From the NCBI RefSeq assembly GCF_022489035.1, contig NZ_JAKVTV010000004.1, forward strand, positions 124,001 to 188,000: a DNA stretch of 64,000 bases, read 5' to 3'. Positions 30,879-62,454 of this stretch are shown here, one piece after another. The position numbers and the translations under genes are program-made. The stretch is from Christiangramia lutea. GTDB lineage: Bacteria > Bacteroidota > Bacteroidia > Flavobacteriales > Flavobacteriaceae. The notes under the pieces were generated by a model. It was not told the origin of the DNA. It did not search any database and worked only from the letters and a program-made list of their open reading frames with translations. The first letter of the stretch is position 1; every line of letters starts with the position of its first letter.

Positions 30879-32015
30879 ATGATAAAATATCTTTTTAATT
30901 TAACATTGATTATTTCCTTGTCCGGCTTCGCCCAGCAAAAGGGTGCATTATCGGAAATTATACAATCTGAAGACCCAAAACTTTCCAGGGTGATCCAAAA
31001 TGTTGAAGACCATGAATTACAAATAATCTATTCAAAAGTTATCAGGAATAACGGAAAGGTTTCTTTTGATGATTTTCAATATGGTGTAGATGCAAAGGAT
31101 TATTTCTATCCCGCCAGCACGGTGAAATTACCAATTGCTGTGCTTAGTCTTGAGAAGATAAATGAGTTGAATGAGAAAGGTTTTAAAATAGATAGAAATA
31201 CCAGTTACCGACTGGAAAATGATTCGCTGGATCACACTATTGCCGGAGATATTAATGCGATTTTTGCGGTAAGTGATAATGATGCATATAACCGTTTATT
31301 TGAATTTCTTGGACAGGATTATATCAATTCAAAATTGAGATCTAAAGGCTTGAAGCCAGTAAGAATTTCTCATAGGTTTTCTGGAGAAGGTTCGGGAGAT
31401 ACCTTAACCAGGCAGATGGTTTTTAAACTTCAACAAGGAGATTTCAAATTGCCGGTTACCAATAATGCGAAGGCAGATTCACTTGAATTATCAAAGGTGA
31501 TTAAGGGAGTGGGATATATTAAAAATGGTGAACAGGTAGACGAACCTTTCAGTTTTGCTTTTAAAAACTATTTTCCATTAGAAACTCAGCATAACCTGAT
31601 GAAGAGATTGTATTTTCCTCAACTTTACCCGGAAAATGAGGTCTTTCAGTTAACTAAAGAAGATTTGAATTTTCTAAAGGCTGCCATGTCCAGGCTGCCA
31701 AGAGAGATGGATTATGACGAATCTGAATATTATGATAGCTATGGAAAGTTCTTTCTATACGGGGACTCCAAAGACCGCATGCCTTCTCATGTGAAGATCT
31801 ATAATAAAGTAGGGTATGCCTATGGCACTCTTACTGAAACTGCGTATATACAGGATGAAAAAAATGATGTCGACTTCCTGTTATCCGCAAGTCTATTGGT
31901 CAATGAAAATGGTATTTTCAATGACGGGGTTTATGAATACGAGGATTTAGGTATACCATTTCTGGCTGAACTTGGCAGACAGATCTATCAAATGGAACTA
32001 CAACGTAAAAATTAA
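30879..32015 (+). CDS. Exported serine hydrolase of the class A beta-lactamase fold
   Basis: A 378-residue secreted protein with a signal peptide (1-18, cut after GFA). Active-site motifs of the penicillin-recognising class A fold are visible: STVK (Ser80-Lys83) and SDN (132-134). The third motif is KVG (310-312) instead of KTG. It is longer than true class A beta-lactamases (about 290 residues) and carries an extra segment at about 150-290. Activity against beta-lactams is possible but a peptidase or esterase role on the cell wall is just as likely. It faces the LD-carboxypeptidase gene. Confidence 0.75.
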   Translation: MIKYLFNLTLIISLSGFAQQKGALSEIIQSEDPKLSRVIQNVEDHELQIIYSKVIRNNGKVSFDDFQYGVDAKDYFYPASTVKLPIAVLSLEKINELNEKGFKIDRNTSYRLENDSLDHTIAGDINAIFAVSDNDAYNRLFEFLGQDYINSKLRSKGLKPVRISHRFSGEGSGDTLTRQMVFKLQQGDFKLPVTNNAKADSLELSKVIKGVGYIKNGEQVDEPFSFAFKNYFPLETQHNLMKRLYFPQLYPENEVFQLTKEDLNFLKAAMSRLPREMDYDESEYYDSYGKFFLYGDSKDRMPSHVKIYNKVGYAYGTLTETAYIQDEKNDVDFLLSASLLVNENGIFNDGVYEYEDLGIPFLAELGRQIYQMELQRKN

Positions 32016-32042
32016 ATCACCGGCTATTTTACCGCCGGTGAT
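32016..32042 (-). terminator. Terminator at the end of the LD-carboxypeptidase gene
   Basis: ATCACCGGC and GCCGGTGAT form a 9-base-pair stem with a 9-base loop. On the minus strand a T-rich stretch follows; on the plus strand it does not. The stem includes the last codons of the LD-carboxypeptidase gene. Confidence 0.6.
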
Positions 32043-33079
32043 AAAAGTTTTAAGGTGCCATTGGTTGCATTTAATTCAGCTTGAATTCCATTTGGAATGG
32101 TAGCATTATCGTCTATATGGCCAATCATGGCGCCGGAATAAGCCGGAATATTGAGTGGTTTAATATAATGATCTATCACTTCTTCCATAGTAAGGGAGCC
32201 ATATCCACTTCCCCCGGGGTCACAATCTGTACATTTCCCGAAAACAAAACCGCTGATCTGGTCAAATACACCTGCCAGGTATAATTGGGTCATCATTCGA
32301 TCCATGGCATAAATCTTTTCACCCACATCCTCAAGGTATAGAATCTTTCCGTTCCAGTCATCCGGGAAATAATCAGATCCCATGATACCGGTAAGTACCG
32401 AAAGGTTTCCACCCAGGAGTTCACCTTTTACGGTGCCTTCCTTAATCACCCTGATCCTGTTTTTTGTCTGCACCAGTTCATCCCCTTTCTTTTCAGGATT
32501 TGAATAGGTAATGGCTTCTTTCTGAAAAAGCAATCGTTTTAAATAACCACTGCTAAAGGAATTCCAGGTGGAAACCGCAACCGGGCCGTGAAAAGTAGTA
32601 AGCCCAGTTTTTTCATAGATCGCCAGGTGCAAAGCAGTGATATCGCTGTATCCGATAAATATCTTCGGGTTTTTCTTAATTGCCTCATAATTCAGTTTAT
32701 CCAGAATTCTAGCTGCACCAGAACCACCGCGAAGAGCTATGATCGCCTTAATGGATTCGTCTCGAAACATTTCGTTTAGTTCTTCTGCACGCTCTTCATC
32801 GGTGCCTGCAAGGTGGCCATACCGGTTTTTAGTGTTTTTTCCGAATTTTACTTTAAGGCCCATGGCTTCAAAAGATTCTTTCGCGATATGGTAAGGTTCC
32901 GTCTCAAAAATAGCGCTAGCCGGGCTTACAATTCCAATCGTATCGCCTTCTTCCAGGGCTTTTGGGATAATGGCATCTTTTAAATGATTGTTTACTGGTT
33001 CCTGGTTATATGAGATTGGATTCAGGGGGATCAATAGCCCGCCCATACCCATATTCTGTATAAACTTTCTTCTTTGCAT
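32024..33079 (-). CDS. LD-carboxypeptidase (peptidase family S66)
   Basis: A 351-residue serine peptidase. The N-terminus has a twin-arginine type signal (RRKFIQNMGMGGLLIPL). The S66 catalytic triad is complete: Ser145 in IGYSDITAL, Glu250 in YLEDVGE and His321 in IGHIDDNATIPNG; the RGGSGAARIL motif at 117-126 is also typical. Family members cut the L-Lys/DAP-D-Ala bond of tetrapeptides (LdcA) or inactivate microcin C (MccF). A Tat-exported form would act on wall peptides outside the cytoplasm, unlike E. coli LdcA. The gene lies 17 bases after dacB on the same strand and probably shares its transcript. Confidence 0.88.
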   Translation of the reverse strand: MQRRKFIQNMGMGGLLIPLNPISYNQEPVNNHLKDAIIPKALEEGDTIGIVSPASAIFETEPYHIAKESFEAMGLKVKFGKNTKNRYGHLAGTDEERAEELNEMFRDESIKAIIALRGGSGAARILDKLNYEAIKKNPKIFIGYSDITALHLAIYEKTGLTTFHGPVAVSTWNSFSSGYLKRLLFQKEAITYSNPEKKGDELVQTKNRIRVIKEGTVKGELLGGNLSVLTGIMGSDYFPDDWNGKILYLEDVGEKIYAMDRMMTQLYLAGVFDQISGFVFGKCTDCDPGGSGYGSLTMEEVIDHYIKPLNIPAYSGAMIGHIDDNATIPNGIQAELNATNGTLKLLSPAVK

Positions 33080-33096
33080 GAGGTTGGGAATATATT

Positions 33097-34452
33097 TTAG
33101 TAATTATCTCTTACCTTTTCTAAAATCCTGGTCATACCTTCCTTAAGTTCAGAGGTAGGTACGGTATAATTACTATTCATGAAGCTAAAAATTAGGGTTC
33201 TGCCACTTTTGGTAACAAGGAAACCACTAAGACTATGATTGTTTTTTAAGGTTCCTGTTTTGGCATAAATATAAGGAGTTTCAGCTTTGTAATAATTTTT
33301 GAGGGTACCAGATTCACCTCCTGCGGCTAAAATTTTGAAAAGCTCTTCCTTCGGCATCTCCATTTCAATCTTTTCAATGAGTTTTGCCATGGTTCTTGGG
33401 GTGAAAAGATTATACCTGGAAAGTCCCGATCCGTCATACCATTGCGGTTCATCGGGAAGATCATTGAGGTGTTCCTTTTTCATATAGTCTATGGCGATGT
33501 CGGTTTTTAGGGTATCAGAGATTTTATCGGCAGCCATTAGAAGGATCTGTTCCGCGATAAAATTGTCGCTTACCTGCATCATTCTTTTATAAATACTGTC
33601 GCTTGAAATGCTAAAAATCGTTTTGTCAAAAACAAGTTTTTCCGGATTTCCATGGTAGACTGAAATCTCGCGATTCAAAGTGTCTGAAAGTAAACCTGCG
33701 ATTAATTCTTCCGAGAATTTAAAAGGAACATATTGCATGAAATCATTATCCCTGTTAAAGTTTTGATACTCCATTCTGTTCGAAGAAAAATCTCTTTGAG
33801 CATATTTGTTTTTTTTGCCCATAATCTCTACTGGAAATATGGAGTCCTGCATTCTTTTCGGTGTTACCGTAGGGGCCGCAGTACCGGCTTTAAATTCCAC
33901 CTTGAGGAGATTTCCATAAACGGGAAGGTCGATCCTTTCGGCAGAATAATAGGAATCATAATCTCCCCAGGCCCAACCAGGTCCCAGGGCTTTTTCTTTA
34001 TAAATAGGAGGAACATAAATTAAAGAGGACTCCTGAGCATTTAAAAATTCAAGAATTTCAGATTCAGGAAGATCTGGATTCATCAAAGTGGGGTCTCCGG
34101 TTCCTTTGAAAAAAAGACTGTCTCTTTTCACGGTATACCTCAAAGCCGGAACTGAATCACCCAGGACCTTCAGGCCAGTGTAAAGCGTAAATAATTTAGT
34201 ATTTGAAGCAGGGGTGAAATACTTTTCTTCATTATGAGCATACAACATCTTCTGAGAAACTGGATCGTAAATAACAAATCCAGCAAATCCCTGGCTGAAT
34301 TCTTTAGCCTCAATAAATTCTTTCTCGATTTCTTTATTAGTCTTCTTTATAGCAGAGCAGGAGGTAAGAATTAATGAGATTAGTAATGGAATTGCCGATG
34401 AATAAGAATGTTTTTTGAGTAGATGAAAATTTAGTAAAAAAATATTATTCAT
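33097..34452 (-). CDS. dacB: D-alanyl-D-alanine carboxypeptidase/endopeptidase (PBP4, family S13)
   Basis: A 451-residue low-molecular-weight penicillin-binding protein. Active-site motifs are SNTK (Ser83-Lys86), SDN (295-297) followed by the family's AE, and KTG (398-400). A hydrophobic start ends in a lipobox LTSC (Cys32), so it is probably a lipoprotein. PBP4 trims D-Ala from pentapeptides and cuts DD-cross-links in the periplasm. It is divergent from the susC gene with 137 bases between, and is followed by the S66 peptidase gene. Confidence 0.9.
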   Translation of the reverse strand: MNNIFLLNFHLLKKHSYSSAIPLLISLILTSCSAIKKTNKEIEKEFIEAKEFSQGFAGFVIYDPVSQKMLYAHNEEKYFTPASNTKLFTLYTGLKVLGDSVPALRYTVKRDSLFFKGTGDPTLMNPDLPESEILEFLNAQESSLIYVPPIYKEKALGPGWAWGDYDSYYSAERIDLPVYGNLLKVEFKAGTAAPTVTPKRMQDSIFPVEIMGKKNKYAQRDFSSNRMEYQNFNRDNDFMQYVPFKFSEELIAGLLSDTLNREISVYHGNPEKLVFDKTIFSISSDSIYKRMMQVSDNFIAEQILLMAADKISDTLKTDIAIDYMKKEHLNDLPDEPQWYDGSGLSRYNLFTPRTMAKLIEKIEMEMPKEELFKILAAGGESGTLKNYYKAETPYIYAKTGTLKNNHSLSGFLVTKSGRTLIFSFMNSNYTVPTSELKEGMTRILEKVRDNY

Positions 34453-34589
34453 GTTAAAATGATATGATTTAGAGGTAGTTGTTAAAATAATGTTGAAAAG
34501 TGTTTAAACTTTTACCAAAAATAATAATAAATAAACCAATGGTTCTAGTATATTTATTTTTCATTCACAATTAATTAACAATATAAGGT

Positions 34590-37500
34590 ATGAAATTAAA
34601 AAGTATGATAATGGTCTTTTTGACCATTTTTCAATTTGCATCCTTGGTAGCACAGGAAGATTCTGTGAGCGGTCTGGTAACCAGCTCTGCAGACGGTGAG
34701 CCTGTTTTTGGCGTCAATGTGCTGGTTAAAGGTACTAATCGGGGTACAACAACCGATTTTGAAGGAAATTATCAGATCGATGTAAATCAGGGGGAGATCC
34801 TGATTTTCTCTTCGATAGGTTTTGAAACCCAGGAAATCACCTATTCAGGACAATCTACCTTAAATGTTACTCTGGTGGAAGACCTGGAAAGCCTGGATGA
34901 GGTGGTAGTTACTTCATTCGGTATTGAGCAGGAAAAGAAATCACTGGGTTACGCGGTTCAGGAGATTGGTTCCGAAGAGATCACCAAAACGAAACAGCAA
35001 AATCTTGTAAGTGCTTTGCAAGGGCAGGCTGCTGGTGTGCAGGTTACCAATTCTGGAGGTGCGCCAGGTATGAGTGCAAGAATCATTATCAGGGGGGTTA
35101 ATTCCCTGGATCCTGGCGCCGATAATCAGCCTCTGTTTGTTATTGATGGGGTGCCTATCGATAACTCTACTATTGAATCTAATGGTACGCCACGTGGATT
35201 ATCTAACCGTGCCGCTGACATCAATCCTAACGATATCGAGTCTTTGAACATACTAAAAGGTGCTGCTGCAACCGCACTTTATGGGGTTAGAGCATCGAAC
35301 GGAGCAGTAATTATCACCACTAAAAAAGGTAAAGCAGGAAAAGTGAGGATCAATTTCAATACTTCTTTAGGTTTTGATGAGATCAATCAGTTTCCAGATT
35401 TCCAGGAAACTTATGGGCAAGGGTTCTCTGGAGAATATAACCCAGATTCGTTTTGGCCAAACTGGGGACCTTCCATGGAGGAGATCAACCAGATAGATCC
35501 AGACGTAAGGTTTTATGATATCTGGGATGATGCTATGAGAACAGGTGTGCAGATAGATAATAATATAAGTATTTCTGGTGGTAACGAGAAAGCTACATTC
35601 TATGGTTCTCTGGGTAGACTCGATCAGGAAGGGATCATTCCATTTAGTGATTGGGGAAGAACTTCAGCAAAATTAAGTGGAGAAGTTGTTTTTAGTGAAA
35701 AGTTCAGGTTTTCGGGAAATGTAAATTATACTGTAACCGGAGGTAATCGTGTTCCTCATGACAGGTTTATGGAGCGTCTTGTTTACTGGTCTCCAAATCA
35801 TGATGTAGAAGACTATATTAATGAAGATGGTACCATGAGAACCTACGGAAATACCAACCCGATCTATGATGCCAGATTTAGTACTTTTGAAGATGAGGTA
35901 AACCGAACTGTTGGTAACCTTCGTTTTACCTACAGTCCTTTTGAATGGCTTGATCTAACATATTTAGTAGGAACAGATTATTACAGTGATAAAAGAACCG
36001 AGATCACACCTGGGCCATTAGGAATCGACGGTGAGAATCCTTTGAGTAGCACTGGTTTTATTACTGAAACCAGGATTAACAGTCGGGATATTAACTCGAA
36101 CTTCTTCATTACTCTTAAAAACGACTGGACAGAAAAACTGAATACCACTTTGCGTCTTGGTAATGATGTTTTTGAAAGGGATTATGAAAGGGTAGATGCA
36201 ACTGGAGTTGAATTCGTGATCCCGGAGTTCTATGATCTAAGTTATGCGTCTCAGATTTCCAATTCTCAGGATAAAAGGAAAAGAAGGCTTGTTGGGTTGT
36301 ATGGTGATCTTATGGTGAATTACGATGAGACCTTATTTCTTAATGTTACAGCCAGAAATGACTGGACTTCTACACTTCCAATCGGGAATAATTCCTTCTT
36401 CTATCCTTCGGTTAACCTAGGTTACGTGTTTACTGAAAGTTTTGAACAACCAGACTGGTTTACCTTTGGTAAAATTAGAGGTTCCTGGGCCGAAGTAGGT
36501 AAGGATACCGATCCCTATTTAATTGGACAAACTTATGCTTCTCCTAGTGTATATCCATTGGGCGGTGAGGTAGGATTTACAAGATTTAGCCAGTTCGGTG
36601 ATCTTGAATTAAGGCCTGAAAAAACCACTGCCATCGAATTTGGTACAGACCTGAGATTTTTCGAAAACAGGTTAGGACTGGATGTGACCTGGTATAAGTC
36701 CAATAGTAAAGACCAGATTATTCCGGTTCCAGTAAGTGAAACAGCTGGTTTTTCTACCTTTGTTACCAATGCGGGGGAGATCGAAAACCAGGGATGGGAA
36801 TTCATCATAAGTGGTACTCCTGTTAGATCTGAAAATTTCAGATGGGATGTTTCTCTTAACGCGGCCTATAATCAGAATGAGGTTAAAAGCATTCGAGAAG
36901 GGATTGAAGAGATCGTGGTTGGAACCCAGTTTGGTTACGGCGGATCATCAGTTACCATTAAATTACTGGAGGGAGAGCCTTACGGTAATATTTTCGGAAC
37001 CAGTTATGCAAGACAGGGAGCAGACCCAAACAGTATCTATCTTAATGAAAGCTTACCTATTATTATAAGAGAAGATGGTTTTCCAGATAGAAATGGAAGC
37101 CAGTTAGTTCTGGGGAATACAACTCCTAAATGGATAGGTGGTTTGAAGAACGATTTCAGTTTCAAAGGTTTTGATCTTTCATTCCTGATCGATTTTAGAT
37201 CTGGAGTAGAGCAGTACAATCAGTATGATAACTTCTTTTCAGCTTTCGGTATTGCAGAATATACTCTTAACCGGAATGAAACTATTGTTTTTGATGGCTT
37301 TCTTGAAGATGGCTCTCCAAATACCCAGCCGGTTTGGCTAGGCCAGGGAGAAGGGCCTGACGGAAGAAATTATGGTGCTGGTTTCTATAGGAATATCTAC
37401 CGTACTGTAAGTGAGAACTTCGTTCAGGACGCTTCCTTTATAAAGCTTAGAAATATTACTTTAGGATATAACTTTCAGGGTAATATTCTGGATGTTCTAC

Positions 37501-37676
37501 CATTCGAATCGGCAAGAATGTCGGTTGCTGCGAATAATATTATCCTTTATACGCCCTGGGATGGATTTGATCCTGAGTCATTCAGCTCGGGTGCAGGAGG
37601 GAATGCGACAGGTTTAACAGGACTGGGTTATCCAGGTGTTAGAAGCTTTTTCTTTACACTAAACCTTGGACTTTAA
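34590..37676 (+). CDS. SusC/RagA family TonB-dependent outer-membrane transporter
   Basis: A 1028-residue protein. Signal peptide (1-21), CarboxypepD_reg-like domain (about 25-100, with VSGLVTSSADGEPVFGVNVL), TonB-dependent plug with the SusC signature (about 115-235, FVIDGVPIDN and ILKGAAATALYGVRASNGAVIITTKKG in parts), then the 22-strand barrel ending in FFFTLNLGL. SusC proteins import oligosaccharides, peptides or other oligomers with a SusD lid. The partner gene starts 18 bases later. No carbohydrate-active gene is adjacent; the neighbours are wall hydrolases, so the substrate may be a peptide or muropeptide (inference). Confidence 0.95.
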   Translation: MKLKSMIMVFLTIFQFASLVAQEDSVSGLVTSSADGEPVFGVNVLVKGTNRGTTTDFEGNYQIDVNQGEILIFSSIGFETQEITYSGQSTLNVTLVEDLESLDEVVVTSFGIEQEKKSLGYAVQEIGSEEITKTKQQNLVSALQGQAAGVQVTNSGGAPGMSARIIIRGVNSLDPGADNQPLFVIDGVPIDNSTIESNGTPRGLSNRAADINPNDIESLNILKGAAATALYGVRASNGAVIITTKKGKAGKVRINFNTSLGFDEINQFPDFQETYGQGFSGEYNPDSFWPNWGPSMEEINQIDPDVRFYDIWDDAMRTGVQIDNNISISGGNEKATFYGSLGRLDQEGIIPFSDWGRTSAKLSGEVVFSEKFRFSGNVNYTVTGGNRVPHDRFMERLVYWSPNHDVEDYINEDGTMRTYGNTNPIYDARFSTFEDEVNRTVGNLRFTYSPFEWLDLTYLVGTDYYSDKRTEITPGPLGIDGENPLSSTGFITETRINSRDINSNFFITLKNDWTEKLNTTLRLGNDVFERDYERVDATGVEFVIPEFYDLSYASQISNSQDKRKRRLVGLYGDLMVNYDETLFLNVTARNDWTSTLPIGNNSFFYPSVNLGYVFTESFEQPDWFTFGKIRGSWAEVGKDTDPYLIGQTYASPSVYPLGGEVGFTRFSQFGDLELRPEKTTAIEFGTDLRFFENRLGLDVTWYKSNSKDQIIPVPVSETAGFSTFVTNAGEIENQGWEFIISGTPVRSENFRWDVSLNAAYNQNEVKSIREGIEEIVVGTQFGYGGSSVTIKLLEGEPYGNIFGTSYARQGADPNSIYLNESLPIIIREDGFPDRNGSQLVLGNTTPKWIGGLKNDFSFKGFDLSFLIDFRSGVEQYNQYDNFFSAFGIAEYTLNRNETIVFDGFLEDGSPNTQPVWLGQGEGPDGRNYGAGFYRNIYRTVSENFVQDASFIKLRNITLGYNFQGNILDVLPFESARMSVAANNIILYTPWDGFDPESFSSGAGGNATGLTGLGYPGVRSFFFTLNLGL

Positions 37677-37694
37677 AAATTAAAAAATTAGGAT

Positions 37695-39107
37695 ATGAAA
37701 TTTAGAATAAAAAAATACAAATACGTAATCCTCGCCTGTGCCTTTGCGTTTACATCATGCGATGATTACCTGGACATAAATGATAATCCAAATAACCCAA
37801 CAGAAGCACCTCTGGCCGGGTTAATGGTGAATTCTACCTATGAAACTTCCCAGAACACCTTTAGGATGGGGGATATAACAACTAATTATGTGCAATATTT
37901 AGCTTCGCCCAATGAGGCCAGTGCTTCTGATGTTATGGAGCCTGTGAGTTATAGTGGTACCTGGGGTTCTTTATATAATGTAATGACCGATATTAATGAC
38001 CTTATTCTGAAAGCTCAGGATGAGGAGGCCAATCATTATGAAGGAATCGGGCAGATCCTTATGGCTTATAATCTGGCGTTAACAGTAGATGCCTGGGGAG
38101 ATGTTCCTTATACCGAAGGCTTTAATTTTGTTACGGTAACTCCATCTTATGATGATGACTCGCAGTTATATAGTGAGATTATTTCCCTTCTAGATAGTGG
38201 TATGGCTAATCTTTCTATGGAAACCAGTGCTTCTGTTGGTGGTGATGACTTTATCTATAATGGAGATGCTGATAAATGGATGAAATTTGCCTATATGTTA
38301 AAGGCAAGATATCTGAATCATTACAGTGAGACGGGAAATTACGATCCTAACGCAGTTCTGTCGGCACTTGAAAATGGTTTCGATGGCAATGAGGATGATG
38401 CTCAAATGGAGTATTTTGTTGAATCTATCAATCCATGGGCAGATGTAGCAATAGATAATGCCAATCTTTTCCTTGGTGGCTGGATCTCTGAGCAATTTAT
38501 TGAGTCTTTAGACGGAACCCTTTACGGAGTTGAAGATCCCAGATTGCCTTTGATGGTTGGAGCAACAGATGATGGAGAGTATATAGGTACGGTAAACGGA
38601 GCTGGAAGGGGTGATGCGCCAGAGCAAGGTGCAAGATCTGTTCTGGAGGAAGGAGATTTTTATACTACCAGGCAGGGCCCTGTTTTGATCGCTACTTATG
38701 CTGAACAAAAGTTCATTGAAGCTGAGGCTGCCTTCGGAATCGATAAAGCTCGTTCTTATCAGGCTTACCTGGATGGGATAAGAGCTCATATGACCAAGGT
38801 AGGAGTTGAATCTACCGAAATTGATGCTTATATCAGCAATCCTGAAGTAAGTATGGGGGTGGATAGCTTTACCATTGATGATATTTTCAAGGAAAAATGG
38901 GTGGCTCTGTTCCTTAATCCCGAAGCCTGGGTAGATGCCCGCCGTTACGATTATGGCTATGAGGATTTTGATCTTCCTGAGAATCTGAATCCAGACCTGG
39001 GAGGAATGTTCATTAGAAGGCTGGCTTACCCAGATTCTGAAGTAAGCAGAAATGGAAATAATGTTCCTGATGTTACTTTGTTGGATCCTGTTTTCTGGGA
39101 TGAATAA
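37695..39107 (+). CDS. SusD/RagB family surface lipoprotein (SusD-like_2 type)
   Basis: A 470-residue lipoprotein with lipobox FTSC (Cys22) followed by Asp-Asp, as in surface-exported lipoproteins. The opening DDYLDINDNPNNPTEAP and the segments GQILMAYNLALTVDAWGDVPYTEGF (in parts) and FIEAEAAF are typical of the SusD-like_2 group. SusD caps the SusC barrel and binds the incoming ligand. The SusD-like_2 group is often found with SusC proteins that do not belong to polysaccharide loci. A terminator follows. Confidence 0.93.
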   Translation: MKFRIKKYKYVILACAFAFTSCDDYLDINDNPNNPTEAPLAGLMVNSTYETSQNTFRMGDITTNYVQYLASPNEASASDVMEPVSYSGTWGSLYNVMTDINDLILKAQDEEANHYEGIGQILMAYNLALTVDAWGDVPYTEGFNFVTVTPSYDDDSQLYSEIISLLDSGMANLSMETSASVGGDDFIYNGDADKWMKFAYMLKARYLNHYSETGNYDPNAVLSALENGFDGNEDDAQMEYFVESINPWADVAIDNANLFLGGWISEQFIESLDGTLYGVEDPRLPLMVGATDDGEYIGTVNGAGRGDAPEQGARSVLEEGDFYTTRQGPVLIATYAEQKFIEAEAAFGIDKARSYQAYLDGIRAHMTKVGVESTEIDAYISNPEVSMGVDSFTIDDIFKEKWVALFLNPEAWVDARRYDYGYEDFDLPENLNPDLGGMFIRRLAYPDSEVSRNGNNVPDVTLLDPVFWDE

Positions 39108-39126
39108 GAATTAAAAAATTTTAAAG

Positions 39127-39154
39127 GCCCTGTTTAAAGCACAGGGCTTTTTTT
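39127..39154 (+). terminator. Terminator after the SusCD pair
   Basis: GCCCTGT and ACAGGGC form a 7-base-pair stem with a 7-base loop, followed by seven T. It separates SusCD from the amidase-M14 pair, so these are probably two transcripts. Confidence 0.85.
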
Positions 39155-39169
39155 GTTTAAAGAAGTTTT

Positions 39170-39829
39170 ATGAAAATAATTAGATCAATATTTATAGTTT
39201 TTTGCCTGGGGCTCATTTCCTGTAAATCATCCAGGATAGTAGATAAACCAATAGAGTTTGAGCGAGATCGTATCGATCTTTCATTGGCCTATATGCAGGA
39301 TCGCTATGGGCTTAAAAAAGCTGCACCTAAGATCGATCCAAAGATGATTGTATTGCATTGGACAGCAATTCCAACTCTTGAAGGTTCTTTTAATGCATTT
39401 AAGAACTCTACGCTGCCACAATCGCGGGAAGCTATTTCCGGAGCTAGTCAGCTTAATGTTTCTTCTCATTTCCTGGTAGACAGGGACGGCACTATTTATA
39501 GGTTAATGCCTGAAACTTTAATGGCTCGTCATGTAATTGGTTTGAATCATACCGCCATTGGAGTTGAAAATGTTGGAGGTACAGAAGAAACTCCTCTGAC
39601 CGAAGCTCAGCTTCAAGCGAACATCTGGTTAGTGAAATACCTTAAGAAAAAATATGATATTGAATATCTTTTAGGTCATTATGAATATATCAATTTTGAA
39701 GATCATGAACTTTGGTTGGAAGTTGATGATGCTTATAGAACAAAAAAAACAGATCCAGGAAAACAATTCATGCAAGATGTTCGTAAAGCTGTGAAAAATC
39801 TTAATTTTAAACCGGTTCCAGAAAAATAG
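39170..39829 (+). CDS. N-acetylmuramoyl-L-alanine amidase (Amidase_2), lipoprotein
   Basis: A 219-residue lipoprotein (lipobox LISC, Cys18) with an Amidase_2/AmpD-like domain. Expected zinc ligands are His63 (VLHWTA), His170 (LLGHYEY) and Asp195 (TDPG); Glu133 (GVEN) fits the catalytic acid. It cleaves the bond between MurNAc and L-Ala. The lipid anchor puts it in the envelope, unlike cytoplasmic AmpD. It lies 4 bases before the M14 gene and so is co-transcribed with it. Confidence 0.88.
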   Translation: MKIIRSIFIVFCLGLISCKSSRIVDKPIEFERDRIDLSLAYMQDRYGLKKAAPKIDPKMIVLHWTAIPTLEGSFNAFKNSTLPQSREAISGASQLNVSSHFLVDRDGTIYRLMPETLMARHVIGLNHTAIGVENVGGTEETPLTEAQLQANIWLVKYLKKKYDIEYLLGHYEYINFEDHELWLEVDDAYRTKKTDPGKQFMQDVRKAVKNLNFKPVPEK

Positions 39830-39833
39830 AGAT

Positions 39834-41312
39834 ATGAAAAAGAATATTTTAAGCCAGCTTTTGCTCTTGGTATTTGTTCTTGCAGGTGTAAAGACTGAAG
39901 CGCAGAATGTTCAATTTGCTCAAGATCTTGAAGCTGAATATGAGCAATTCAGGGAAGAGAATATAAACTCAAGAAGATTTAAACACGATGATATTCTTCC
40001 TCTTATCGAGAATTATAATGGACAGCAAGGTTTTCAAGTTCAGGAGGTGGGAGAATCTATAGAAGGCAGAAGTCTTCACCTGGTAAGTTTAGGTAAAGGT
40101 GAAACCGATGTTTTTCTCTGGTCGCAGATGCATGGAGATGAATCCACCGCTACCATGGCAATTTTCGATATTCTGAACTTTTTTGAATCTGGTGAATTCG
40201 AAGAGGAAAAAGCAGAGACGCTCTTAAATTTAAAAATTCACTTTCTGCCAATGTTAAACCCAGACGGTGCCGAAAAATTCACTAGACGTAACGCCCTGGG
40301 AATCGATATTAACAGGGATGCTTTAAGACTCCAGTCTCCAGAAGCAAAAACTTTAAAAAGAATTAGGGATAGTCTTGATGCAGATTTTGGTTTTAATCTG
40401 CATGATCAAAGCAAATATTACAACGCGGAAAGAACTGAAAAGCCTGCAACAATTTCCTTTCTGGCTCCGGCCTACAATTATGAAAAGGATATCAATGAGG
40501 TTCGTGGAAATGCCATGAAAGTAATTGTTCAAATGAATAGAGTTCTTCAGAAGTTCGCGCCGGGTCAGATAGGTAGGTATAATGACGATTTTGAGCCAAG
40601 AGCTTTTGGTGATAATATTCAGAAATGGGGAACCAGTACTATTCTTATAGAATCCGGAGGTTATCCTGATGATCCCGAAAAGCAGGAAATTCGAAAACTG
40701 AACTTTGTGAGTATACTTTCTGCCTTATATGCTATTGCAACCGAAGATTATAAATCTGCTGAAATTTCAGATTATGAGAATATTCCGAATAACGACAGGA
40801 TGTTATTTGACCTAAAGGTAACCGCAATTAATTATAAGTTGAATGGAGAGTCTTATATTCTTGACCTGGGAATAAACAGGTTTGAAAATGATTTGAGTGG
40901 TAATTCTGAATTCTATTATTCAGGAAGAGTGGTGGATCAGGGGGATCTTTCCACGAGCTACGGTTATGAAAAGATTGACGCATCTAGTATGGAGTTTAAA
41001 TTCGGTAAAGTTTATCCTGATAAAGTAACTTCGGAAGAAGAGCTGTCTAAACTTGATCCGAAGGAACTTTTAAAAAAGGGATATGCCTATATTACTGTAG
41101 ATTCCACGCTATTGGATAATAGTCATTCAGATTATCCTCTTAACCTGGTTTCTGAAGGGTTTGCTCCGAAAAATGAAATTCTTAAACCAGGAATAGCCGC
41201 AAACTTTTTCCTCTACAAAGATGGGAAGGTAGAGTATGCTGTTATCAATGGTTTTATTTCAGACCTGGAAGATCCCGTGAAGCAAATTAAGAACAGCCTT
41301 ATTCTTAAATAG
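39834..41312 (+). CDS. M14 family zinc carboxypeptidase, secreted
   Basis: A 492-residue protein with signal peptide (1-23). The zinc motif is HxxE (His100, Glu103 in QMHGDEST) with His190 (NLHDQ); Asn160-Arg161 (DINRD) fits the substrate carboxylate site and Glu273 (ILIESGG) the catalytic base. The M14 domain covers about 50-300; the C-terminal 190 residues are of unknown type. M14 enzymes include digestive carboxypeptidases and gamma-D-Glu-DAP peptidases of the wall. The pairing with an amidase favours a wall or peptide role. Confidence 0.85.
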   Translation: MKKNILSQLLLLVFVLAGVKTEAQNVQFAQDLEAEYEQFREENINSRRFKHDDILPLIENYNGQQGFQVQEVGESIEGRSLHLVSLGKGETDVFLWSQMHGDESTATMAIFDILNFFESGEFEEEKAETLLNLKIHFLPMLNPDGAEKFTRRNALGIDINRDALRLQSPEAKTLKRIRDSLDADFGFNLHDQSKYYNAERTEKPATISFLAPAYNYEKDINEVRGNAMKVIVQMNRVLQKFAPGQIGRYNDDFEPRAFGDNIQKWGTSTILIESGGYPDDPEKQEIRKLNFVSILSALYAIATEDYKSAEISDYENIPNNDRMLFDLKVTAINYKLNGESYILDLGINRFENDLSGNSEFYYSGRVVDQGDLSTSYGYEKIDASSMEFKFGKVYPDKVTSEEELSKLDPKELLKKGYAYITVDSTLLDNSHSDYPLNLVSEGFAPKNEILKPGIAANFFLYKDGKVEYAVINGFISDLEDPVKQIKNSLILK

Positions 41313-62211: not shown

Positions 62212-62283
62212 GGTCCGTTCGTCTAGGGGTTAGGACGCCAGGTTTTCATCCTGGTAACAGGGGTTCGATTCCCCTACGGACTA
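62212..62283 (+). tRNA. tRNA-Glu (anticodon TTC), copy 1
   Basis: A 72-base gene with a full cloverleaf: acceptor GGTCCGT/ACGGACT, D arm with GTCTAGGGGTTAGGAC, anticodon arm CCAGG-TTTTCAT-CCTGG giving TTC, and T arm GGGGTTCGATTCCCC in form. The first pair is G1-U72 and the discriminator base is A. CCA is not encoded. A small hairpin (AAACACT/AGTGTTT, 62291-62309) follows it. Confidence 0.95.
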
Positions 62284-62352
62284 CGAAATAAAACACTGCG
62301 AAAGTGTTTAGTTAAAAGCAACAATTTTAAGTTGCAAATTGAAATAAATAAT

Positions 62353-62424
62353 GGTCCGTTCGTCTAGGGGTTAGGACGCCAGGTTTTCATCCTGGTAACA
62401 GGGGTTCGATTCCCCTACGGACTA
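62353..62424 (+). tRNA. tRNA-Glu (anticodon TTC), copy 2
   Basis: Identical over all 72 bases to the first copy, 69 bases downstream. The spacer has no promoter box, so both are probably cut from one precursor. rpsT starts 30 bases after it. Confidence 0.95.
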
Positions 62425-62454
62425 CTTTTAAAAAACATTTAAATAGTAATTGAA

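Follow-up and report, generated by a model that had tools for sequence, protein, structure and literature searches.

A SusCD pair among wall-peptide enzyme genes in Christiangramia lutea: a candidate importer of peptidoglycan stem peptides

What a SusCD outer-membrane importer carries when its gene neighbours encode peptidases and an amidase of cell-wall type is the question raised by a locus of Christiangramia lutea. The window analysed here is a stretch of 64,000 nucleotides (assembly GCF_022489035.1, contig NZ_JAKVTV010000004.1, positions 124,001 to 188,000 of the forward strand), and the pair in question, a SusC TonB-dependent transporter (34590..37676, + strand) and a SusD lipoprotein lid of the SusD-like_2 family (37695..39107, +), stands in it between a DacB-type gene and an amidase gene. 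Most characterised SusCDs import glycans. Comparison of sequences and gene neighbourhoods leads us to read this pair as a TonB-dependent importer of the outer membrane that would carry mainly peptidoglycan stem peptides or small muropeptides, a reading to which we assign a probability of about 0.6. The cargo may derive from lysed neighbours or be recaptured as the cell turns over its own wall, and the gene evidence fits either source.

This reading is carried by the recurrent linkage of related SusCD pairs to wall-peptide genes outside the genus. Loci were taken from a SusD alignment scan of GTDB species (the best 80 of at least 531 matches), many of which have cell-wall enzyme genes close by; profiles for DacB, S66, BLA2, amidase and M14 were built from genus copies only, and the epimerase profile used three copies from the genus. 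Four locus sets of varying locus length were searched, a link being a match with E below 1e-10 to a wall enzyme within about 10 kb, and one locus (L156) from the same genome as another (L070) was dropped as a duplicate. In the near clade of the window's SusD, which the tree supports with a Shimodaira-Hasegawa-like approximate likelihood-ratio (SH-aLRT) value of 99 (32 rows including the genus), all 22 loci outside the genus carried at least one wall-peptide family, as against 1 of 40 control SusD loci. DacB was found in 18 of the 22, the epimerase in 6, S66, amidase and M14 in 2 each and BLA2 in none. The 22 loci span nine named genera and one further genome, but ten are from Algoriphagus, loci within a genus do not count as independent, and the two from Salegentibacter share synteny with the window. 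The controls are SusD matches of 27-32% identity, taken one per genome down the list with some skipped; all are from the window's family, one from its own genome, whereas the near clade extends to further families. Clade 2 with its kin (ten clade-2 loci plus L080) showed a link in 5 of 11 loci. The accompanying search for S13 copies, which covered all but 2 of 20 loci, found DacB to be the sole S13 gene of the window's genome and one S13 gene each, counting split matches as one, in Salegentibacter, Cesiribacter, Flagellimonas, Pareuzebyella, Euzebyella, Gelidibacter and Fulvivirga; the same held for 9 of 9 further genomes with an S13 match. The S13 gene shares a contig with SusCD in G080 and G128, at 17 kb and 32 kb respectively.

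The association recurs in markedly different arrangements. DacB is divergent from and upstream of SusCD in Christiangramia and the syntenic Salegentibacter, and lies downstream on the SusCD strand in Algoriphagus (directly so), Cyclobacterium, Arenibacter, Aquiflexum and Gelidibacter. Euzebyella has a dipeptide epimerase-like gene by SusCD, and the Gelidibacter locus (L070, L156) reads epimerase, BioF-like gene, SusCD, DacB, M14 and amidase; a set of epimerase, DacB, M14 and amidase surrounds a clade-2 SusCD at L117. In Cesiribacter (L128), DacB and an NlpC/P60-SH3 gene precede SusCD, and BLA2, amidase, amidohydrolase and epimerase follow it. Fulvivirga imtechensis (L147), a more distant clade member than the near clade, has SusC, SusD, a 139-aa protein, S66, amidase, a BLA2-M14 fusion (a single protein of 888 aa), a DUF1611/DgcN-like gene and an epimerase-family gene. 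Because the orders differ by genus, they argue against simple inheritance of one block. Furthermore, in two other genera the interval from DacB to QueE holds a SusCD from a different lineage: L098 (G031) repeats the window's order S66-DacB-SusC-SusD-amidase-M14-QueE with SusC and SusD only 34% and 27% identical to the window's, and L249 (G111:C10:104000-123999) reads S66-DacB-SusC-SusD-QueE at 34% and 28% identity, with no amidase or M14 match at the locus. These two loci suggest that SusCD is tied to DacB-S66 more than to M14, although another reading is that the gap on the DacB side is prone to insertions. We give even odds to the broader proposition that Bacteroidota hold a widespread SusCD lineage dedicated to stem peptides, shuffled with DacB, S66, amidase, M14/BLA2, epimerase and enzymes handling D-Glu, and exchangeable in place for SusCDs of other lineages.

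Several further associations were seen at these loci. A family of 139-155 aa supplies the first gene after SusD in seven loci (L146, L147, L148, L149, L154, L157 and L189), and the two members scanned (L146, L147) gave no Pfam match. A BioF-like pyridoxal-phosphate enzyme is paired with an epimerase-like gene by SusCD at L068, L070 (the same genome as L156), L076, L077, L079, L117, L129, L130, L132 and L136. At L108 and L113, open reading frames (ORFs) of 1537 and 1521 aa matching SusC lie by M14, with no SusD match beside them.

The epimerase-like genes have 3iji/3ijl/3ijq as best solved relative, aligned over its length; we take 3iji, whose record names a muconate cycloisomerase, to be a dipeptide epimerase. 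The next solved relatives are L-Ala-D/L-Glu and dipeptide epimerases (1jpd, 3jva), and DgcA is the top NCBIfam model in 7 of the 9 proteins scanned. A MenC identity for these enolase-family neighbours was set aside, since the DgcA and L-Ala-D/L-Glu epimerase models outscore MenC in six scanned proteins and dipeptide epimerases lead among the solved relatives. An epimerase-like gene is present elsewhere in the window's genome, at a second SusCD locus (L245, G000:C1:1002000-1021999) that comprises genes for a ROK regulator, a glucosamine-6-phosphate deaminase-like protein, an amidase, an NlpC/P60-SH3 protein, the epimerase-like protein, a sodium-solute symporter, GHL10, GH18, SusD and a TonB-dependent receptor, and looks from its gene content like a peptidoglycan or amino-sugar utilization locus. 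A related logic is found in the YkfABC and YcjG-MpaA routes of murein tripeptide catabolism: ykfB and ykfC are reported to be associated in Gramella forsetii and B. thetaiotaomicron (PMC2954226). Those routes are described there as working on cytoplasmic import (PMC2954226), whereas the window's locus adds a SusCD and an S66 protein that looks exported. The DgcN/DgcA pathway, in which dgcN is described as part of acidic D-amino-acid racemization (PMC12363236), is echoed in Fulvivirga and L191, where a DgcN-like protein adjoins an epimerase-family gene; their scores stay far under the cut-offs of the equivalog models, and no such pair was seen at the window locus.

An earlier note, made from the sequence alone, had described seven consecutive genes with intact catalytic residues in the S66, S13, amidase and M14 proteins; the ORFs lie exactly where it placed them, on the same strands, the Pfam and NCBIfam matches agree (in Pfam, each of the seven above its cut-off), and the motifs are in place. 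SusC scores 691 bits against TIGR04056 (cut-off 368) and 56 against TIGR04057 (cut-off 46), with Plug and CarbopepD_reg_2 domains, and SusD scores 186 bits against PF12771 (cut-off 27; 1.9e-54). Upstream, the DacB/PBP4-type S13 lipoprotein (33097..34452, - strand; PF02113) shows by eye the SxxK, SxN and KTG motifs and reaches 107.2 against TIGR00666, marginally under the cut-off of 107.8. The S66 LD-carboxypeptidase-family protein (32024..33079, -; PF02016/PF17676, N and C domains) has GYSDITA, read by eye, as the counterpart of GHSDFTA in E. coli LdcA, the nucleophile being taken as the Ser that reads Ala in solved LdcA 5z03, presumably an active-site mutant, and not in 5z01; LED and, near the end of the protein, a GH, also read by eye, complete a Ser-Glu-His set. 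The exported BLA2, a beta-lactamase-fold serine hydrolase (30879..32015, +; PF13354, 1.2e-11), has what we take to be the SxxK and SDN motifs of this fold, and KVG stands where KTG is usual. Downstream of SusCD, the Amidase_2 lipoprotein of the N-acetylmuramoyl-L-alanine amidase family (39170..39829, +; PF01510, 88 bits, 1e-24) retains His, His and KTD by eye (zinc ligands and KxD), and the secreted M14 metallocarboxypeptidase (39834..41312, +; PF00246) has H100, E103, H190 and E273 invariant across seven sequences (HxxE, second His and catalytic Glu), its predicted structure being poor (predicted local distance difference test, pLDDT, 65).

Among solved structures, the SusC nearest to the window's is BT2264 (388 bits), and a Bt2263/64-peptide complex is reported (PMC7782687). 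The BT2261-2264 SusCD of Bacteroides thetaiotaomicron (5fq6-5fq8) thereby offers both the closest solved SusC and one of the closest SusD folds, but its SusD is just about 22% identical in the fold alignment. RagAB of Porphyromonas gingivalis, likewise a SusCD pair and named a peptide transporter in the same source (PMC7782687), is a more distant likeness, RagA ranking fourth among solved SusCs at 194 bits. The predicted structure of the window's SusD (pLDDT 90.1) has SusD homologues as its fold neighbours, and as these bind mixed ligands the structure is uninformative on cargo. In Bacteroidota sorting, an acidic residue after the lipid cysteine marks a lipoprotein for the surface; such a residue directly follows the cysteine in all 18 SusD lipoboxes found (19 sequences), in 1 of 12 amidase lipoboxes and in 0 of 25 of DacB, and 20 of 22 genus S66 copies begin with an RRKF/RRNF motif of twin-arginine translocation (Tat) type. 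This contrast, together with the Tat-like start of S66, would place trimming in the periplasm.

Our proposed sequence of events would therefore begin with SusD binding a wall fragment at the surface and SusC carrying it into the periplasm, where the amidase would release the peptide from N-acetylmuramic acid (MurNAc) and DacB (DD), S66 (LD) and M14/BLA2 would shorten it. Tri- or dipeptides would then pass into the cytoplasm, and a cytoplasmic epimerase could convert L-Ala-D-Glu to L-Ala-L-Glu. Cargo, direction and order of steps are all put forward conditionally here. Permeases that take wall fragments across the inner membrane are well established. One source names AmpG and MurP (PMC13209645). 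Full-text searches of the open-access literature brought up no report of a SusCD importing peptidoglycan fragments, nor of any outer-membrane importer for them in Bacteroidota. If the proposal is true, wall scavenging or recapture would have an active outer-membrane entry step, the glycan-uptake label given to SusCD would mislead throughout one clade, and studies of how marine and soil Bacteroidota scavenge and recycle wall material would have a first gene to test.

Within the genus, sampled as 24 genomes including the window's own, the pair is an optional part of its locus. Clade-1 SusD orthologues (at least 71% identity) are present in 8 of the 24 genomes and missing from 16, while DacB is found in all 24 (one copy partial) and S66 in 23, the sole miss being a 67%-complete genome; because DacB-S66 is near universal and SusCD is not, SusCD appears to be accessory. 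It occupies the same slot, between DacB and the amidase/M14 genes, in all seven of the SusD-bearing genus genomes that were fetched. Among the fetched genomes with no SusCD at the locus, three have the amidase-M14 pair directly adjoining DacB, and three more have M14 adjoining DacB without the amidase. The long M14 occurs in 15 of 24 genomes, amidase in 10 and BLA2 in 11, each of these also with the long M14. The distribution of SusCD is not random, a point in favour of the wall-peptide reading. All genomes with clade-1 SusD carry the long M14: the 15 divide into 8 with clade-1 SusD, 6 that have a SusD of clade-2 type at another site (36-38% identity; the SusD tree places five of these), none with both and one with neither, and 0 of the 9 without long M14 has either type. 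Menaquinone genes surround the clade-2 SusCD of the genus (loci L071-L075, MenD and MenB identified in L071). In the wider family, M14 is present in 30 of 149 genomes, and the amidase adjoins it in 24 of the 28 M14 genomes fetched for comparison. A fixed seven-gene operon was rejected as a description, gene presence varying across both genus and family.

A number of observations weigh against the import of wall peptides. The link is found in just 7 of 58 loci in the rest of clade 1, and no wall enzyme lies near the clade-2 SusCD of the genus at L071-L075. The Algoriphagus, Cyclobacterium, Aquiflexum and Arenibacter genomes searched have two S13 genes each, and DacB linkage is therefore weaker in those four genera; no S13 gene was found in G141, and G118, G057 and Fulvivirga carry theirs on a contig other than that of the SusCD studied. 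SusD is near M14 in 2 of 28 fetched family genomes, or 4 of 30 counting the window and Gelidibacter, so most family amidase-M14 pairs stand without SusCD. On the HerA-AsnB-QueE tree, M14 and SusCD change alike in all of the roughly 3 independent pairs that have support, too small a number for significance. The best-scoring solved relatives of S66 are MccF proteins, with LdcA entries lower, and the epimerase-like proteins fall under every NCBIfam cut-off. Finally, a conserved, putative terminator splits SusCD from the amidase: the hairpin with T-run at 39123..39151 (+), in the SusD/amidase gap, keeps its stem by matching changes, judged by eye, in 7 of 8 SusCD-bearing genus members and is lost in one, the alignment comprising these eight and two Salegentibacter, which have a different hairpin in its place. 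Hairpin-type sites as a class are not enriched in the stretch scanned (11, against a mean of 11.1 in shuffles).

The most serious rival is a general oligopeptide importer of RagAB type that takes up protein-derived peptides, the wall enzymes being housekeeping genes that are nearby or co-regulated. The peptide-binding BT2264 as nearest solved SusC speaks for it, as does a profile of the S9 peptidase, made from the copies in Algoriphagus, which matched 17 of 59 mostly distant loci and 0 of 40 controls, counts that also tell against a cargo restricted to wall peptides and indicate peptides in general. M14 could cleave ordinary peptides, and a family near SusD in ten Pedobacter-group loci includes one scanned member with an SBP_bac_5 match (OppA/DppA-like); with S9, this makes general peptide uptake a live rival. 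The near clade, however, is linked to DacB and the epimerase, and the NlpC/P60, amidase and DgcN-like genes of single loci suit wall peptides containing D-amino acids better, so that we consider this explanation unlikely on balance. Far more doubtful is an ordinary glycan importer of a polysaccharide utilization locus (PUL), perhaps for an N-acetylglucosamine-MurNAc or chitin-like part. It has the precedent of most characterised SusCDs, as noted above, and its other support also counts against wall peptides, the Foldseek neighbours of SusD including chitin-binding Fjoh_4561 and glucan-binding SusDs. Yet no glycoside hydrolase or lyase was found among the fifteen window proteins scanned (24.9-46.6 kb), on which ground a glycan PUL was rejected, and it is the second SusCD locus of the genome that has GH18 and GHL10; we regard this as very improbable.

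A different kind of explanation, which we hold to be quite improbable, sees nothing here but an envelope-gene neighbourhood by ftsA/ftsZ whose DacB-side gap tends to receive SusCD pairs. FtsA and FtsZ genes do lie just upstream of the cluster, the genes on either side keep their order across the genus whether or not SusCD is present, almost every genus genome has DacB-S66 whereas SusCD is often missing, and the same gap holds different SusCDs in different genera; the link nonetheless persists where no ftsA/ftsZ match was found, in the checked Algoriphagus, Euzebyella, Cesiribacter, Fulvivirga and Gelidibacter loci. Just downstream of ftsA/ftsZ homologues of another genus stands a clade-2 SusCD (L078:3916-12479). 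The wall-peptide importer that we prefer upholds part of the interpretation in the earlier note. Its inference of wall peptides over glycans is strengthened by an association that recurs across genera in several gene orders and by relatives carrying dipeptide-epimerase-like, NlpC/P60-SH3 and DgcN-like genes; comparison across relatives shows a conserved neighbourhood, and the terminator it had placed between SusCD and the amidase pair is borne out by the hairpin. The seven genes do not form one fixed unit, since clade-1 SusCD is absent from two thirds of the genus genomes and most amidase-M14 pairs of the family stand without SusCD, and trimming by surface enzymes before uptake is made doubtful by the lipoboxes.

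Upstream of SusC, a TATATTTA box (34549..34556, +) that we take to be a Bacteroidota -7 element shows no change in any of the 10 sequences aligned. Downstream, the cluster is followed by QueE-like, DUF2911, asparagine synthase and gyrase B genes, and further along the window, at 62212-62425, lie two tandem tRNA-Glu genes with the identical anticodon ttc.

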